From positions 1 through 48,688 of the forward strand of contig NZ_BMZH01000016.1 in the NCBI RefSeq assembly GCF_014652695.1: 48,688 bases of DNA. The letters run 5' to 3'. This document shows positions 36,476 to 42,252 of the stretch, piece after piece. Within the stretch, counting starts at the first letter, position 1. The number at the start of each line of letters is the position of its first letter. A model generated the notes under the pieces. It saw nothing but the letters and a program-made list of their open reading frames with translations. It was not told the DNA's origin and did not search any database. Source of the stretch: Algimonas arctica. Lineage in GTDB: Bacteria; Pseudomonadota; Alphaproteobacteria; Caulobacterales; Maricaulaceae. The position numbers were made by a program, and so were the translations under genes.

Positions 36476-36550
36476 GCCGCGGTAGCTCAGTGGTAGAGCG
36501 CATCATTGGTAATGATGAGGTCGGGAGTTCAATTCTCCCTCGCGGCACCA
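36476..36550 (+). tRNA. tRNA-Thr (GGT)
   Basis: 75 nt with acceptor stem GCCGCGG / TCGCGGC (one G-T pair), D arm AGCTCAGTGGTAGAGC, anticodon loop TTGGTAA (GGT) on stem CATCA / TGATG, T arm GGGAGTTCAATTCTCCC and encoded CCA. The accessory region begins directly after its 3' end. Confidence 0.97.
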
Positions 36551-37001
36551 GTTTTTTACAAATAATCAATATAAATCAATGGTATAAATTTGTTTTGATG
36601 ATTTCATGTACAAATTTATGTACATACTTGCTTTCGTAGGATCAAAAACGTGAGCACATGATTACGTAAATCAACTTTTTGAGTCTCGTTACCCACTCAA
36701 CGGTCTCAACGGCAGGATTTGATCCAAGTTGGCCGATTCTAGTATCGAACACTGTTGATGTCGCGATCTCCCCTGATCAACAACCCAATTACACCTCCAG
36801 ACCCAACTCTGTTCCAGTAGTGACCAAAAGTGCAGAAAACGTAGAATAGCTCAACGTGGTCTATGTCACCCCTACCACCCCATCCCCCATAGGGGGTCAT
36901 CGTTGCACTCTCGCTCTTCTTTCCGAAATACGGTTTCTCCATTCGGGGAGGTATTCACGTCCTGACTAATTTCTTGATTCCCATAACTAGGAGAATCTGA
37001 A
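36551..37001. other. Spacer after tRNA-Thr, start of accessory region
   Basis: 451 bases, A/T-rich for the first 110 bases, without a supportable gene. The first part carries the palindrome described next. No integrase or integrase remnant was seen, and no direct copy of the tRNA-Thr 3' end was found downstream to 42.3 kb. Confidence 0.5.
36606..36625. promoter_or_regulatory. 20-bp palindrome (ATGTACA-N6-TGTACAT)
   Basis: A perfect inverted repeat with 7-bp arms and an A/T-only centre, 55 bases downstream of the tRNA-Thr gene. It could be an integrase or excisionase arm site left by an element inserted at the tRNA, or an operator for the AlpA-like gene 380 bases away. Confidence 0.45.
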
Positions 37002-37214
37002 ATGGATGAAAAATACCTCAACACGAAAGAAGCGTACGTGCGGATGAACATAAGCCGGTCGACGTTTTATCGGTATCGAAAAGATAACCCCAACTTCCCT
37101 CGACCGTTGAAATTGAGCGAGAGTTGTATGCGCTACAAGCTCTCAGACATCACCCGCTATTGTGACAGTACGCAGGGCGGCCCAGAGTCAAGCAAAGGGC
37201 AGCATCATGTTTGA
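37002..37214 (+). CDS. AlpA-like helix-turn-helix regulator
   Basis: 70 residues of the AlpA/phage-transcriptional-activator type: LNTKEAYVRMNISRSTFYRYRKDNPNFPRPLKLSESCMRYKLSDITRYCD, a winged helix-turn-helix that usually controls integrase or excisionase genes of prophages and satellites. TAGGAGAA upstream is a good ribosome site. It overlaps the next gene by eight bases. Together with the tRNA next door it marks an integrated element. Confidence 0.8.
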   Translation: MDEKYLNTKEAYVRMNISRSTFYRYRKDNPNFPRPLKLSESCMRYKLSDITRYCDSTQGGPESSKGQHHV

Positions 37215-37770
37215 TCGTAGATATATGTTCTCAGACTATCACTATAAGTTTGAAGACGAAAACCAAACGCGGGATTATTTGAATGCGCAGATAGGAAAGT
37301 TCATACCGAATTATTTTCTGACCATTACAATGCATCCTTACTCAAAGATTTTTGAAATTGACCGAGTTATCAGCGAGTTCGCTGAATCCCACCAACGATT
37401 TCCAAAAGAGGTCGTGAATCGTGTGGATTACAAGATGTACGGGCGCAAACATGCCCGTATGCCTAAATCTGAAAAATATTCTTTCATTACTCGCTTAGAA
37501 ACCAAGTCCCGTAACAACACACGCGTACTCCCACATTTTCATATGTATATGGGGAATATGGATTTTGATCTTCAGGATCAGGTCGATGACTTACGTGATG
37601 ACATAATGAAGAGCCTAAGGAAGCTATGTTATCAGATGGGTTTCCAACCCAACATCGATTTTAGGCGGCATGATGTGTCTGAGAATGACTACATCCTAAA
37701 ATTCCCATTGGCGGACATCCAACACATCGATTGGAGAAACGCCTGCCCTCCCATCGAAGACCCCCACTAA
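37207..37770 (+). CDS. Small HUH-motif protein, possible replication-initiator remnant
   Basis: 187 residues from ATG 37207, after an AAAGGG ribosome site. NYFLTITMHP resembles motif I of HUH endonucleases and PHFHMYMG (His110, His112) resembles the two-His metal site. A convincing catalytic Tyr motif (Y-x3-K) is not clear, although tyrosines lie at LCYQMGF and NDYILKF. HUH proteins nick DNA to start rolling-circle replication or transfer. This one is small, so it may be a minimal initiator of a satellite element or an inactive derivative. Assignment is tentative. Confidence 0.5.
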   Translation: MFDRRYMFSDYHYKFEDENQTRDYLNAQIGKFIPNYFLTITMHPYSKIFEIDRVISEFAESHQRFPKEVVNRVDYKMYGRKHARMPKSEKYSFITRLETKSRNNTRVLPHFHMYMGNMDFDLQDQVDDLRDDIMKSLRKLCYQMGFQPNIDFRRHDVSENDYILKFPLADIQHIDWRNACPPIEDPH

Positions 37771-38540
37771 TTTCGAAACGCTTTGATAAACCCTCTTTAG
37801 GCCAGACCATTGAATCAAGGGTTTACCATTGCTTGCTCCATGAGAGCCCTATTTCTCAGTTTAAGATGAGAAGTAGTGTTTAATGTTGCCTAGACCTCAC
37901 TGAGTCCATCACTTAACCAATTGTTTTATATAACTTATTATTATTCATACCAACTCAGCGTTATTGGTTCTGAGAAGGATTGGTTTAAACTATGGGTTCA
38001 AACTATAAGAATGAGTACCGTTAGAATGTGTGACATCTACAGTTCAGTTGAAACCCATGAAGATGGTAATCGCTTCAAATGCACACAGTGTAGACCAAGG
38101 GTGTGACCGCAGACTTATCCTTCGGATGAAAAGCTTATACAAACACCAATCATAGCCGTTTAGGGGTAAAGGCTATCATTAAAGACTGAGTTCATAGGCC
38201 TAAAAGCTTAAGGTGGTCTCCCAAGGGTTAGGTTGTTAGTAGGAGAGCCACTTAATGGTTAGAAGGGCAATGTGGGTTTGAACACTCTCAAGGCTTTAAC
38301 CAATCCACCTACATCACTTCCACAATCAGTACTGGTGCCTGTCAGCCTTACTGACCGTCCACTTAAGGGCTTGACCAACGACAACCTCCGGCCAGCCAAT
38401 TTTAGGCCATTTAATCATCGTCTGCTGAGGTGTCAAAGCGGACCTCAGACGAGCGGCTTAAGACGCCCAAAACCGGCCGCTGGTAATGTTTGCGAATATG
38501 GCCGTTATATACTTTATTTAGGAGACTCGCGTCGGCGCAT
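37771..38540. other. 770-bp low-coding spacer with an intergenic repeat copy
   Basis: No gene is supportable; short frames at 37921-38106 and 38272-38670 have no family or ribosome site. The first half is A/T-rich. The right end contains repeat copy A. Confidence 0.45.
38451..38500 (+). repeat. Intergenic repeat, copy A
   Basis: Begins GAGCGGCTTAAGACGCCC and contains GGCCGCTGGTAATGTTTGC (38475-38493), a 19-mer repeated exactly in copy B. It lies downstream of the EreA/ChaN-like gene, whose stop is at 38541. Confidence 0.6.
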
Positions 38541-39746
38541 TTACTTGGTAAATACGAAAGCCTCGCCTTTTATGGGTTTGAGTGCATTTGATCCGTTCAT
38601 TAATATTACAGCGTCAAAATTCTCCGCCGCAGGCCCATCAATGTGGAAGTTTCGGATCATCGACATATAACCACTGCTGCCCACCAATGCCGGGGACTTG
38701 ATATATGGTGAGCCCGGATTGTTTATATCAAAGAGCATATTTGGCGCATCGCCCATCACAGACTTTGCTGCACCAATCCCCCGTGTTCGAAACATCCAGC
38801 CATTGTCGAAGCTCATCGGTGCCTCAGTATAAAGCTCGCCATTCTTTGGTTTTGGTATGCCTGGAAATGCTCCCGACGGTATCATATTGGAACATGCCCC
38901 TACACATAAAGTTGTTATCGTCGCGACAGCGTCTTTGAATGTCGGCGAGACTTTCTCTGTTCCGCTATTTAAATAAGCCGATAGGCTAGGCGAACCGTTC
39001 GTACCAACCTTATTAATATGAGATATGCCCCATAGACCGTAAAATTTCGCTTCGGGAAGAGCTTTATCCATCAAAGCAATATTTGAGAGGATATGACGGT
39101 AGCGAGAGCTGCCGTCCACACGTGACGCATTGGCCTCCAGCAGCATCATATTTACAGCATAAGCTGTGTCCTCGTCTACATCCGAGAGTGTTTGAGCCAT
39201 TGCAACGAATTTCTCCTTCGACGGTCCGTCTACTCCAATAAACCTAATCTTCTGGTCGTCAGGGAGAGACACGTTTAAGTCTCTGATAGAACGAATTTTT
39301 TTTAAGAAGTCTAAATTTCCCCACTGGGATTGTCGCTCATCATGCCAGGCATTAAACACATTAATGAGGGCCTCATCTTGTCCCGTTCGCAGATAATGAT
39401 TAAATATAATGGCAGTGGCCGGGTCGATTTCAGCCATATAGTCGCGAACGCCCAGACGTTGATTGAGGTGAGTCAGCAGGGCCAAATCGATAGATTGCAC
39501 TCGCGAATACCCGTGCATTTCTCCCAACATAAACAATCGATTTTCATAGAAAGCATCGTCAAAGGCAAAGTTTCCATCGGCTTGGGTCAAGTCGAGCCTA
39601 ACTTCGTTTTCAGATAGATAGTCTTTTTGTGTTTTCGCCGTAAAGCTATCAGCGATGACCGGAAACCAAGGCAGCGCAATGACTAACAAAACGCTTGAAA
39701 GAAACAGAAGGCCGAGCCATTTCAAGATCTTTATTATTACCTGCAT
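38541..39746 (-). CDS. Membrane-anchored EreA/ChaN-like protein
   Basis: 401 residues. An N-terminal hydrophobic stretch (about residues 8-30) is a signal anchor, so most of the protein is periplasmic or extracellular. FMLGEMHGYSR (Glu76, His78) and YMAEIDPATA (Glu106) resemble the metal or catalytic loop of erythromycin-esterase, ChaN and TIKI/TraB-type folds, and INKVGTNG may hold a later His. No specific reaction can be named; the erythromycin-esterase name should not be read as antibiotic resistance. It is flanked by repeat copies A and B in the same orientation. Confidence 0.6.
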   Translation of the reverse strand: MQVIIKILKWLGLLFLSSVLLVIALPWFPVIADSFTAKTQKDYLSENEVRLDLTQADGNFAFDDAFYENRLFMLGEMHGYSRVQSIDLALLTHLNQRLGVRDYMAEIDPATAIIFNHYLRTGQDEALINVFNAWHDERQSQWGNLDFLKKIRSIRDLNVSLPDDQKIRFIGVDGPSKEKFVAMAQTLSDVDEDTAYAVNMMLLEANASRVDGSSRYRHILSNIALMDKALPEAKFYGLWGISHINKVGTNGSPSLSAYLNSGTEKVSPTFKDAVATITTLCVGACSNMIPSGAFPGIPKPKNGELYTEAPMSFDNGWMFRTRGIGAAKSVMGDAPNMLFDINNPGSPYIKSPALVGSSGYMSMIRNFHIDGPAAENFDAVILMNGSNALKPIKGEAFVFTK

Positions 39747-39875
39747 TTAACGCTCCCGTTTGGAGTAAGGCTGGCCTTATGAAGAGGATAATGTCAAGTC
39801 TCTGATAATGGTAAAGGCTAAATAAATTTGAAATTTGAGCGTCTTTAACTCGCCCCACAGCGGCCCCTCAGTTCA

Positions 39876-39925
39876 GAGGCTTAAAACGCTCAAAGATGGC
39901 CGCTGGTAATGTTTGCCAATAAGGC
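39876..39925 (+). repeat. Intergenic repeat, copy B
   Basis: GAGGCTTAAAACGCTCAAAGA then GGCCGCTGGTAATGTTTGC (39898-39916), identical to copy A over 19 bases. It lies in the 377-bp spacer (39747-40123) upstream of the EreA/ChaN-like gene; the rest of that spacer holds a degenerate continuation (GCGGACATTTGCC near 39976) and no gene. Confidence 0.6.
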
Positions 39926-40123
39926 GGCATTCTCCAAAAGAAGGACACTCGGTAAATTCTGTTGCAACCCGATTGCGGACATTTGCCCCATATGCCTCCA
40001 GGTTTTGGGTTTGGAGCTTAACGGACGTTGCCGATGGTAAGTTTCCTAGAAAGATCGACCTTAAATTGGCATAGCAAAGTCTAAAGTTTAGAATCTTTCA
40101 AACTCTAGAGAATCGAATGCATT

Positions 40124-41089
40124 TCAACATTCCTGCCAGTCCAAATGAGGCTCACTACTTTCCAATAGAAAGCTGTCGACCCAATCGTGAAAAACCCCGG
40201 CTTTCAAGACCCTGTCATGCTCATCGGTCGGATGAAGTTGCGCACGATCATTGCATTCAAGCACAAGAGGAACATTTTGCTTGTTTAGAATAATGTCGAG
40301 ACCCACCAATTGCGAAAACCGTTCGTTCGGTAAAGCCCCGGATGCCGCCGTTTTATCCGCGATGCTGTCTATCATCTTCCTAAACAGCGAACAGACACCC
40401 GACCAAAAATTCGCCTCATTTAAGGGTATTGAGCTGGCGAAAAGCTGGCTTGTGTATCGCGGAAGCGTGTCTTTTTTGACCACCGAGTTGGCTGTTATCG
40501 GATTGTCTGCACTCTCGCTGTAGATGATCTTTCCTTCCCGGGCGATCACGCCGGAGAGCCGGCCATTAAAGTAGTTTATGATACCATAGACGCGGATATT
40601 GAAGATTTCGCCGTCCAGCAGGTCTGAACACTCAATGAGCTCTTGCACCAAAATATAACCATCGGAACGACGGAGGTTTTGCAGGTCAGAGAGATTGACC
40701 ACATCCACCGCTTTGCGGTTATGGCCCCGACCCTTTGCAATCATTTTGATGGGAAGGTTGAGGTTGATCTTATGCGTCAGCCTGACGAGATCACGTTTCG
40801 CGCTCAGCACAAAGCTTTCGGGCATAATGGTCATCGCGGCATCGCGACCATGATGTCTGACTAACGCGACCCATAAATATTGCTTTAAACTCAAAAATTC
40901 GACGCCAGGCACGCACATATAGTAGTCATGACAATGGAGCGCTAGGCGCTCCCTTAATAATCGTATGGCCTGTTTTCCGGAAGGGAAATATAGCGGCGCT
41001 TGGCCGCTATATATGGGCGTAATCCCTTGTCTCGAAAATGCCTGCAAGTATGGCTTAGATGTCTCGGGGTAGGTGAGAACATCCATCAT
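40124..41089 (-). CDS. ATP-grasp ligase resembling tubulin-tyrosine ligase (TTL-like)
   Basis: 321 residues, no signal peptide, so cytoplasmic. MPESFVLSAKRDLVRL (90-104), KMIAKGRGHNRKAVDVV (115-131), YILVQELIECSDLLDGEIFNIRVYGII (145-171) and LVGLDIILNKQNVPLVLECNDRAQ (261-284) follow the TTL order: lysine strand, glycine-containing loop, VQ-YI...DGxxFxIRVY, then GLD and E-x-N metal ligands (Asp265, Glu278, Asn280). TTL family enzymes use ATP to join an amino acid to a protein C-terminus or Glu side chain. The gene begins 37 bases after the tubulin-tail protein gene on the same strand, which strongly suggests that protein is its substrate. Other ATP-grasp peptide ligases remain possible. Start may be GTG 41092, ATG 41089 or 41086; no strong ribosome site. 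Confidence 0.72.
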   Translation of the reverse strand: MMDVLTYPETSKPYLQAFSRQGITPIYSGQAPLYFPSGKQAIRLLRERLALHCHDYYMCVPGVEFLSLKQYLWVALVRHHGRDAAMTIMPESFVLSAKRDLVRLTHKINLNLPIKMIAKGRGHNRKAVDVVNLSDLQNLRRSDGYILVQELIECSDLLDGEIFNIRVYGIINYFNGRLSGVIAREGKIIYSESADNPITANSVVKKDTLPRYTSQLFASSIPLNEANFWSGVCSLFRKMIDSIADKTAASGALPNERFSQLVGLDIILNKQNVPLVLECNDRAQLHPTDEHDRVLKAGVFHDWVDSFLLESSEPHLDWQEC

Positions 41090-41126
41090 CACAGATTTAC
41101 TGACTTAGGCCCTCAAAAACGTGGCT

Positions 41127-41519
41127 TTAATATTCTTCGAATTCATCGTCTTCACCCTCACCTTCGATAGAATCAACACCGACTTCTTCATAATCTCGTT
41201 CTAAGGAAAAATAGGGATTTGTATCGTCAAGGTCGTCGCCATTCACGACAAAACCGGCCTCAGTTTCCTCACATGACGTGAAATAAACGTCCGCATTCCC
41301 GTAACCATCTCCGTCTGCGTCTTCATAAAATGTCGTTGGAAGGAAATCGCCGTGGGACCGGATGTGGCTGTTCGCGGCCTTTGACGGCAAAGTCAGAACG
41401 CGAAAGCTACCGTGACCATTATAATGGCAAAGCTCAACCTTCGCCTTTTTGGCCGCAAAGGCGGGCTCGGCAAAGGCTAAAACTGCGACAGTCGCCGACA
41501 AAAGTAAGATATTTTTCAT
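41127..41519 (-). CDS. Exported protein ending in an alpha-tubulin-like C-terminal tail
   Basis: 130 residues. A Sec signal peptide covers residues 1-22 (AFA cleavage). Residues 31-60 (CHYNGHG...HIRSHGD) resemble a small Cys/His motif seen in secreted bacterial proteins. Residues 65-102 (YEDADGDGYGN, Cys83, NGDDLDDTNP) match the metal-binding MopE/thrombospondin-3-like repeat. Residues 106-130 are then almost the C-terminus of eukaryotic alpha-tubulin: LERDYEEVGVDSIEGEGE, an acidic DDEF, and a final EEY. AGGGGG lies nine bases before the ATG, with TTGCAC-16-AAAATA at 41584-41557 as a possible promoter. The TTL-like gene follows. Role unknown; tubulin mimicry or tail modification is inferred. 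Confidence 0.85.
   Translation of the reverse strand: MKNILLLSATVAVLAFAEPAFAAKKAKVELCHYNGHGSFRVLTLPSKAANSHIRSHGDFLPTTFYEDADGDGYGNADVYFTSCEETEAGFVVNGDDLDDTNPYFSLERDYEEVGVDSIEGEGEDDEFEEY
41130..41204 (-). other. Alpha-tubulin tail-like coding segment (25 codons)
   Basis: Translated directly from the minus strand. Against the human TUBA1A tail as I recall it (LEKDYEEVGVDSVEGEGE, EE, GEEY), 19 of 24 aligned residues are identical; K/R, V/I and two E/D changes are conservative, one Gly is Phe, and one Glu is inserted. The terminal Tyr after Glu-Glu, the residue that tubulin-tyrosine ligase adds, is kept. Confidence 0.88.
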
Positions 41520-41724
41520 GTGTAATCCCCCTGAGTGACGGCAGATTATTTTGCGGTATTTTAAAAAAACTTAAAATTGTGCAAGTTGCAGCCCCAAATT
41601 TAGAGTAGTCAATAAGCTCGCAGAATGTCAATCTGATTCAGTGTTGCCAGATCGGTTAAGTCCTTACGATCTCACAAACGATGACATTCTAACGCTGAGG
41701 CGCGAATTTAAACGTGGATATGCG

Positions 41725-41852
41725 GAGCGGCTTAAAATCGCCTCAAGTTGGACACTCGGCTAATGTCAGGTTTAGGGACCATCTTGACTTCAGCTCAGGG
41801 GGCGAAGCGGACCTCTCGAGAGTGTCTTTATTGAGGCGATTTTAAGCCGCTC
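41725..41852. repeat. Intergenic repeat copies C and C' forming a large inverted repeat
   Basis: GAGCGGCTTAAAATCGCCTC plus AA at 41725-41746 is matched perfectly (22 bp) by its reverse complement at 41831-41852. Four unmatched bases further in, GACACTC pairs with GAGTGTC, extending the stem. The core matches copies A and B (GAGCGGCTTAA). A further reverse-orientation copy, with AAGCCGCTCA-like ends and AGCGGACATT, extends to about 41925. Confidence 0.7.
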
Positions 41853-42252
41853 AGTTTCAGCAGCTTTGGGGGCTTAGCGGACATTTATTGAGTGTTTTAG
41901 AACACCCAAGATAAGCCGCTCACCCGTCACTAAATAGATTCATGTAAGTCGATGTGTTTTGTGTGAGGGAATTTGGGTGCACCACTTCACTTGGAAATTC
42001 AGCAAAACACCTGGAAGATCAGAGCTAGTTCGCGGGTGCGTTCGATTGTTCCGTCGCTTGGTTTACTCGAAACTTGGTGATTTCTATCTTTTACCATGGT
42101 CGCACATCCATTCATTCTCAGGCGTGGATAAAACGTATTACGCTCACTTGTTGAGTGTGGCGACATTGTTGGATTAGGCGGCGGCCTCTGAAGTGCTTTA
42201 TAGCGCGCATTTTCCCGGACCGTCATAAAATTGTCTCAAGAAAAAGACAAAA

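Follow-up and report, generated by a model that had tools for sequence, protein, structure and literature searches.

Two adjacent genes of Algimonas arctica appear to encode an exported protein with an α-tubulin-type C-terminal tail and a ligase of its own, for which this tail would serve as the substrate. We put this reading at slightly better than even odds (a probability of roughly 0.57). Both genes lie in the 48,688-nucleotide stretch analyzed here (the window), and the features discussed below are collected in Table 1. The first gene, P0001, had been described earlier from the letters alone. The second, P0002, is located directly downstream on the same strand and, as judged by its sequence, is a divergent tubulin-tyrosine ligase-like (TTL-family) protein of a stand-alone bacterial and phage type. 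A single genome is known to carry both genes as a pair.

Table 1. Features of the P0001-P0002 region (positions are those of the window).
Feature	Position	Strand	Description or basis
P0001	41127..41519	−	130 aa, apparently exported, α-tubulin-like tail at the C-terminal end
Putative Sec signal peptide of P0001, MKNILLLSATVAVLAFAEPAFA	41454..41519	−	Cleavage after residue 22; by eye only
MopE-like/DxDGDGYG repeat, P0001 residues 60-102	41214..41342	−	23 loci elsewhere in bacteria
α-Tubulin-like C-terminal tail, LERDYEEVGVDSIEGEGEDDEFEEY, P0001 residues 106-130	41130..41204	−	PDB search, shuffles, codon bias
Intergenic gap P0001-P0002, 34 nt	41093..41126	−	Consensus scan
P0002	40124..41092	−	TTL-family (tubulin-tyrosine ligase-like) ATP-grasp protein, 322 aa; PF03133
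Variable region	36551..42220	.	Between tRNA-Thr (36476-36550) and a conserved porin/pst block; holds P0001 and P0002
AlpA/excisionase-like gene	37002-37214		Within the variable region 36551-42220

The reading frame, strand, and sequence of P0001 given in the preliminary description (130 codons and a stop at 41127-41519 of the minus strand, with tail codons at 41130-41204) were confirmed. Export had been proposed as well, and the N-terminus, inspected by eye, does resemble a Sec signal peptide. The body of the protein had been called MopE-like, and residues 60 to 102 proved to be common to repeat proteins at 23 loci in other bacteria, belonging to other phyla (Planctomycetes, Bacteroidota, Myxococcota, and others); the best relative is 60% identical over about these residues. 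In the alignments with these loci, P0001 displays the FYEDADGDGYG..C..GxVxNxxDxDDTNP repeat of MopE-like/DxDGDG proteins. We take MopE-like to be the proper family name of the repeat; a Pfam scan of P0001 gave no match. Neither Pfam nor a phmmer search against the Protein Data Bank (PDB) revealed a tubulin GTPase domain in P0001, the likeness to tubulin being confined to residues 103 to 130, and the earlier statement that the rest of the protein is not tubulin thus holds. In the 17 alignments (13 loci) that extend beyond residue 110, the repeat relatives contain no tubulin-like tail and have a further MopE-like or similar acidic repeat instead; the PGATEI..GIDDD half-repeat that comes next in several of them is absent from P0001. 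The P0001 repeat had one weak match among plasmids, and a search of phages for P0001 relatives returned none.

When the whole P0001 protein was searched against the PDB, α-tubulin ranked first (best E value of 3.5e-5, with residues 103 to 130 aligned to the chain ends), and all but one of the 40 chains with E ≤ 10 were tubulins. The tail LERDYEEVGVDSIEGEGEDDEFEEY is identical to that of bovine α-1D tubulin at 20 of 25 positions without gaps, close to the 19 of 24 originally reported for the vertebrate tail, and it is of the α-tubulin type both in its sequence and in its EEY end. Its BLOSUM62 score is 112, while 40,000 composition-preserving shuffles have a mean of 32 (SD of 5.7, maximum of 67), which corresponds to a z of 14. 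The concern that unrelated acidic tails might match equally well is met by real control sequences, which top out at 62 for acidic windows (263 windows, 542 other proteins) and at 31 for true C-terminal tails (468 tails). The human tubulin tail was also searched against 385 genomes of the class: the A. arctica genome matched at 29.7 bits (E of 1.6e-6), and 17 other genomes matched at E ≤ 10 with a top score of 17.5 bits. According to these sequence comparisons, the tail similarity on its own is strong, not absolute.

A chance origin would mean that an acidic tail happens to resemble tubulin and that the ATP-grasp gene beside it is unrelated. The per-genome E value of 1.6e-6, scaled to 97,973 species, gives about 0.16 chance matches, and parts of the sequence do recur elsewhere. 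DYEEVG-coding DNA is present in 1 of the 136 other genomes of the family, and a pattern search found six viral contigs, of which five encode small phage proteins with LEKDYEEVG close to the C-terminus and one has FEKDYEEVG inside a protein. The phage proteins (L133-L137) form a small family that apparently carries this start of the tubulin tail by chance. In none of them is the LEKDYEEVG segment followed by EGEGE or EEY, and the match in P0001 spans 25 residues up to the last codon. Chance becomes implausible because a TTL-family gene adjoins the tail gene: P0002 is the sole PF03133 match found in the genome, and its position adds a factor near 1e-3 for roughly 3000 genes (an estimate from 3.25 Mb). 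Shuffles, real controls, and the PDB search all place the likeness beyond chance, and we agree with the preliminary description that a coincidence is very unlikely.

At the third position, the codons that specify the tail are unusually AT-rich (G or C at 6 of 26, with 11.7 expected; P = 0.015). Among control windows, 5 of 528 have a third-position G/C content as low, and the body of P0001 is normal. The AT-rich codons and the presence of the tail in one genome alone would also be expected if 41130-41204 were an assembly chimera or contamination from a eukaryote. Against such an artifact, which we consider exceedingly improbable, the tail is in frame, a stop codon stands right after EEY, the sequence runs on into the TTL gene, and the genome is 99.98% complete and 0.35% contaminated.

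P0002 starts with a GTG at position 41092, directly followed by ATG codons, and no terminator was found by consensus scan in the gap that separates it from P0001. Its sole significant Pfam family is PF03133 (47.2 bits, E of 2.3e-12, cut-off of 20.1); a second family, ATPgrasp_ST, has an E value of 0.02. Passing the PF03133 cut-off is weak evidence by itself, since it is exceeded as well by all six D-Ala-D-Ala ligases that were checked (22.7 to 36.2 bits). These ligases reach PF03133 through a short end motif and score far better on their own family. P0002 is unlike them in that no other ATP-grasp family is significant and both of its parts are colinear with TTL. Scanned alone, the C-terminal part matches TTL with an E value of 8.4e-9, and the N-terminal part matches TTL only (residues 62-175 on 15-128; E of 0.014; 15 bits, below the cut-off). 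The match to the TTL family is therefore full-length and colinear, with an N-terminal part that is weak on its own. RimK, by which a graspetide/RimK-type ligase would be recognized, gave no Pfam match to P0002. Weak PF03133 matches were rejected as TTLs: 27 such proteins were read, 19 passed a crude Ddl filter, and the seven tested by Pfam were six D-Ala-D-Ala ligases and one circularly permuted ATP-grasp protein.

One Myxococcota genome encodes two stand-alone TTL-like proteins (L140:5749-6795 and L141:5761-6771) that are full-length homologues of P0002, scoring 63.5 and 59.7 bits against it and 65.0 and 80.5 bits against PF03133. A third full-length homologue, a TTL-family protein of 426 aa, is encoded by a 735-kb uncultured phage (LR756501.1, L142:5719-6999; 72 bits and an E value of 9e-12 to P0002, 79.9 bits to PF03133); a gene that looks GroEL-like by eye is situated nearby (L142:3044-4657). 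In a search of 20 genomes with relatives of the P0001 repeat, PF03133 TTLs were found in the Myxococcota genome alone. Searches of plasmids for TTL ligases and further searches of viral contigs for relatives returned none. With a profile built from P0002 and both Myxococcota proteins, the polyglutamylase TTLL6 ranked first in the PDB (1e-10, a signal to which the two relatives contribute a part). With this profile, 21 of the 24 matches at E ≤ 1 were TTL, TTLL, or PBY1 (a probable TTL); the other three comprised two entries with uninformative names and one dehydrogenase (E of 0.38). Of the conserved catalytic residues of the TTL family, P0002 retains D266, E279, N281, Q150, and R167. The basic residue before FNxR, which is R, R, and K in the three homologues, is replaced by I163, and the predicted activity of P0002 is uncertain for this reason. 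An AlphaFold2 model of P0002 alone was poor (pLDDT of 33).

A parallel to the P0001-P0002 pair is provided by bacterial TTLs of ~800 aa. At all 12 loci read, 11 in the family and one (G941) elsewhere in the phylum, it adjoins a gene for a Glu-rich protein with GEAEG and/or GEGEAE repeats and, by eye, an export-like N-terminus (L120-L131, in G131, G129, G126, G127, G119, G112, G134, G123, G135, G118, G132, and G941, respectively). The long TTL of G126 scores 205 bits against PF03133, a profile dominated by long TTL proteins finds TTLL6 at 1e-48, and the two long TTLs tested contain a PqqD-like stretch that is under the cut-off. Assignment of P0002 to this long type was rejected: Pfam sees no PqqD match in it, and an HMM of the 12 long TTLs scores it at 14.9 bits, less than 20 of the 27 ATP-grasp controls, which match this HMM through a generic end motif. 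CxxCH is present in the Glu-rich neighbors at all 11 family loci, and Pfam recognized a cytochrome-c-like domain in the one neighbor that was scanned. The Glu-rich part is mostly an internal repeat; it is C-terminal in L125 and in one of the two Glu-rich neighbor genes of G941, the first of which ends in GEGEGEGEGEAEGEAEG.

Seven of the 136 family genomes contain clusters of at least three GEAEGE codon runs, and all seven are among the 11 with a long TTL (Fisher's test, 2.3e-9, a value that overstates independence, since 10 of these 11 genomes are from one genus and shared descent is uncorrected). Single runs are common, with at least one in 59 of the 136. As far as sequences can tell, one arrangement recurs in bacteria, in which a TTL gene stands beside a gene whose product is rich in Glu and Gly and apparently exported. 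The long-TTL pairs look like an undescribed bacterial polyglutamylation system, and P0001-P0002 looks like a second form of the arrangement. For the short TTL type, recurrence is weakened because, in the stretches read, none of the three P0002 homologues has an acidic-tailed, export-like neighbor.

The recurrence of GEGE-type stretches beside other TTLs fits an origin of the tail within the bacterium, where it would have been shaped through recognition by a TTL-fold ligase without descent from tubulin; part of it may be a decayed MopE repeat. Convergence of this kind, which is still compatible with a substrate-ligase pairing, is the main alternative to eukaryotic capture as the origin of the tail. 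It also agrees with the acidic G..EI..GIDDD stretch found at the aligned place in relatives such as L013-L015 and with PGATEIxxNGIDDD there in several. Yet LE[R]DYEEVGVDS reproduces tubulin before the Glu-rich tail, a feature that, we infer, a Glu-ligase should not need, and windows taken from GEAEG repeat proteins reach a score of 39, compared to 112 for the tail of P0001. We regard convergence as unlikely. Capture is favored over it, short of proof, because of the AT-rich third positions and the likeness to the tubulin stretch that precedes the Glu-rich part. Probably, the tail stems from a captured fragment of a eukaryotic α-tubulin gene that would have been retained because it suited a TTL-fold enzyme.

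No orthologue of P0001 or P0002 was recognized in samples of the family (137 genomes) and of the order (398 genomes). In the order sample, at E ≤ 0.001, P0001 had no match in the 397 other genomes, and P0002 had none outside its own; weak matches to P0002 appeared in 10 genomes (E of 0.017 to 0.087). Weak matches to P0001 were detected in 11 of the 136 other family genomes (E of 0.006 to 0.094). The ORF ends examined among them contain no tubulin-like tail, and two end in a MopE-like repeat; one of the matches, L005 at 28 bits, aligns over residues 22-128 with 29% identity and likewise lacks a tubulin-like tail. PF03133 was matched at E ≤ 0.001 in 12 of the 137 family genomes, by the short TTL in A. 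arctica and by the ~800-aa type in the other 11.

The P0001-P0002 pair lies in a region that is variable and probably mobile. DNA synteny with five congeners begins no further left than 42221, ahead of the porin gene, and left of 42221 no congener matched in the stretches compared (that of G057 includes only 597 bases upstream of its match). Diverged noncoding repeats at 38421-38502, 39866-39957, and 41725-41852, with a 33-nt inverted repeat that is 88% complementary, look like what is left of a small mobile repeat. The gene that follows P0002 on its strand (38541-39746) is erythromycin esterase-like at a subthreshold score (23.2 bits, cut-off of 26.4). When DNA of the variable region was compared to plasmids, the best 10 of 35 matches covered the tRNA-Thr stretch alone, on plasmids that we take to be from Alphaproteobacteria; the tally of 35 also includes Escherichia, Salmonella, Proteus, and Pseudomonas. 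A search for rRNA in the A. arctica genome returned none.

We propose that P0001 and P0002 are co-transcribed and that P0001 is a small protein, destined for export, whose C-terminus would act as an acceptor tail of the tubulin type. To this tail, the stand-alone ATP-grasp ligase P0002, which is TTL-like, would attach at least one amino acid in the cytoplasm, before Sec export. The added residue would most likely be glutamate, joined to the glutamates of EGEGE, and less likely a residue at the C-terminus. Glutamylation within EGEGE is the first guess because the nearest solved relatives of P0002 are polyglutamylases and the tail already ends in tyrosine, so that a tyrosine ligase would first need a carboxypeptidase. 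What is exported would then be a protein in which a putative calcium-binding repeat precedes a strongly acidic tail that might bind cations.

The preliminary description had offered capture from a eukaryote or selection as a mimic. The present results lend no support to the animal or algal host suggested there, nor to the engagement of CAP-Gly proteins or of tail-modifying enzymes such as VASH or TTL in a host. Capture is weakly favored by the AT-rich third positions of the tail, while mimicry is made unnecessary, because the adjoining TTL-family gene, which had been missed, supplies a partner inside the bacterium. As a host-directed mimic, exported P0001 would show the α-tubulin tail to a eukaryote and engage the proteins that read or modify it, and P0002 would prepare the tail or act on host tubulin. 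The near-complete tail with its EEY end, the putative export signal recognized by eye, and the location of the pair in a variable region, in this genome alone among those searched, would suit such a role. However, a simple Sec signal leads to the periplasm or the outside and would not take P0001 into a host cell, and the pairing of other TTLs with cytochrome-c-like proteins in relatives indicates that a TTL beside a Glu-rich protein needs no host. We find mimicry distinctly doubtful.

In a broader interpretation of the substrate-ligase pair, the α-tubulin tail would have been captured as a portable tag on an exported metal-binding protein and would be run by the protein's own TTL-like ligase, so that a "tubulin code" would exist apart from tubulin. 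Considered along with the long-TTL/GEAEG pairs of related bacteria, this could point to a general bacterial system in which TTL-fold ligases modify Glu/Gly-rich segments of proteins that are exported; the tubulin code of eukaryotes might be one of its branches. We advance this interpretation tentatively, as possible at less than even odds. If it is true, tubulin tails can be transferred as working modules, the two genes make a minimal system for studying TTL-type tail recognition in E. coli, and exported proteins modified by TTL-fold ligases constitute an undescribed bacterial class. It would also bear on the origin of eukaryotic TTL/TTLL enzymes and of their preference for Glu/Gly-rich tails. 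No published report of TTL/tail-protein pairs was recognized in searches of an open-access library, subscription papers lying outside this scope.

Among known systems, the eukaryotic TTL/TTLL enzymes and the α-tubulin tail resemble the pair in that a PF03133 ligase is combined with a tail that shares the sequence type and the EEY end. In contrast to them, the tail is here part of a small MopE-like, apparently exported protein rather than of tubulin, the ligase is short and divergent, and both genes are bacterial and adjacent. The long bacterial TTLs with their GEAEG/GEGEAE cytochrome-like proteins share with the pair a TTL gene beside one for a Glu-rich, export-like protein; they differ in that the enzyme is long and, by profile, close to TTLL6, and in that the Glu-rich part of the neighbor is mostly internal and not a tubulin-like tail. 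RimK and the graspetide/PEARL ligases are bacterial ATP-grasp enzymes that act on gene-encoded proteins or peptides by adding or linking residues. RimK is the glutamylase of ribosomal protein S6; both also appear in PMC4431377. Compared to these ligases, P0002 has no RimK match, and its candidate substrate is tubulin-tail-like and apparently exported. For TTLL5 and RPGR-ORF15, we know of no gene pairing of this kind. In eukaryotes, a TTLL enzyme modifies RPGR-ORF15 by glutamylation of its Glu-Gly repeats, which have been compared to the tails of tubulin (PMC13052805). TTLL5/RPGR-ORF15 is like the proposed P0001-P0002 pair in that a TTL-family enzyme acts on a tubulin-tail-like Glu/Gly-rich stretch of a nontubulin protein (PMC13052805), and it differs from the pair in being eukaryotic and in involving another protein.
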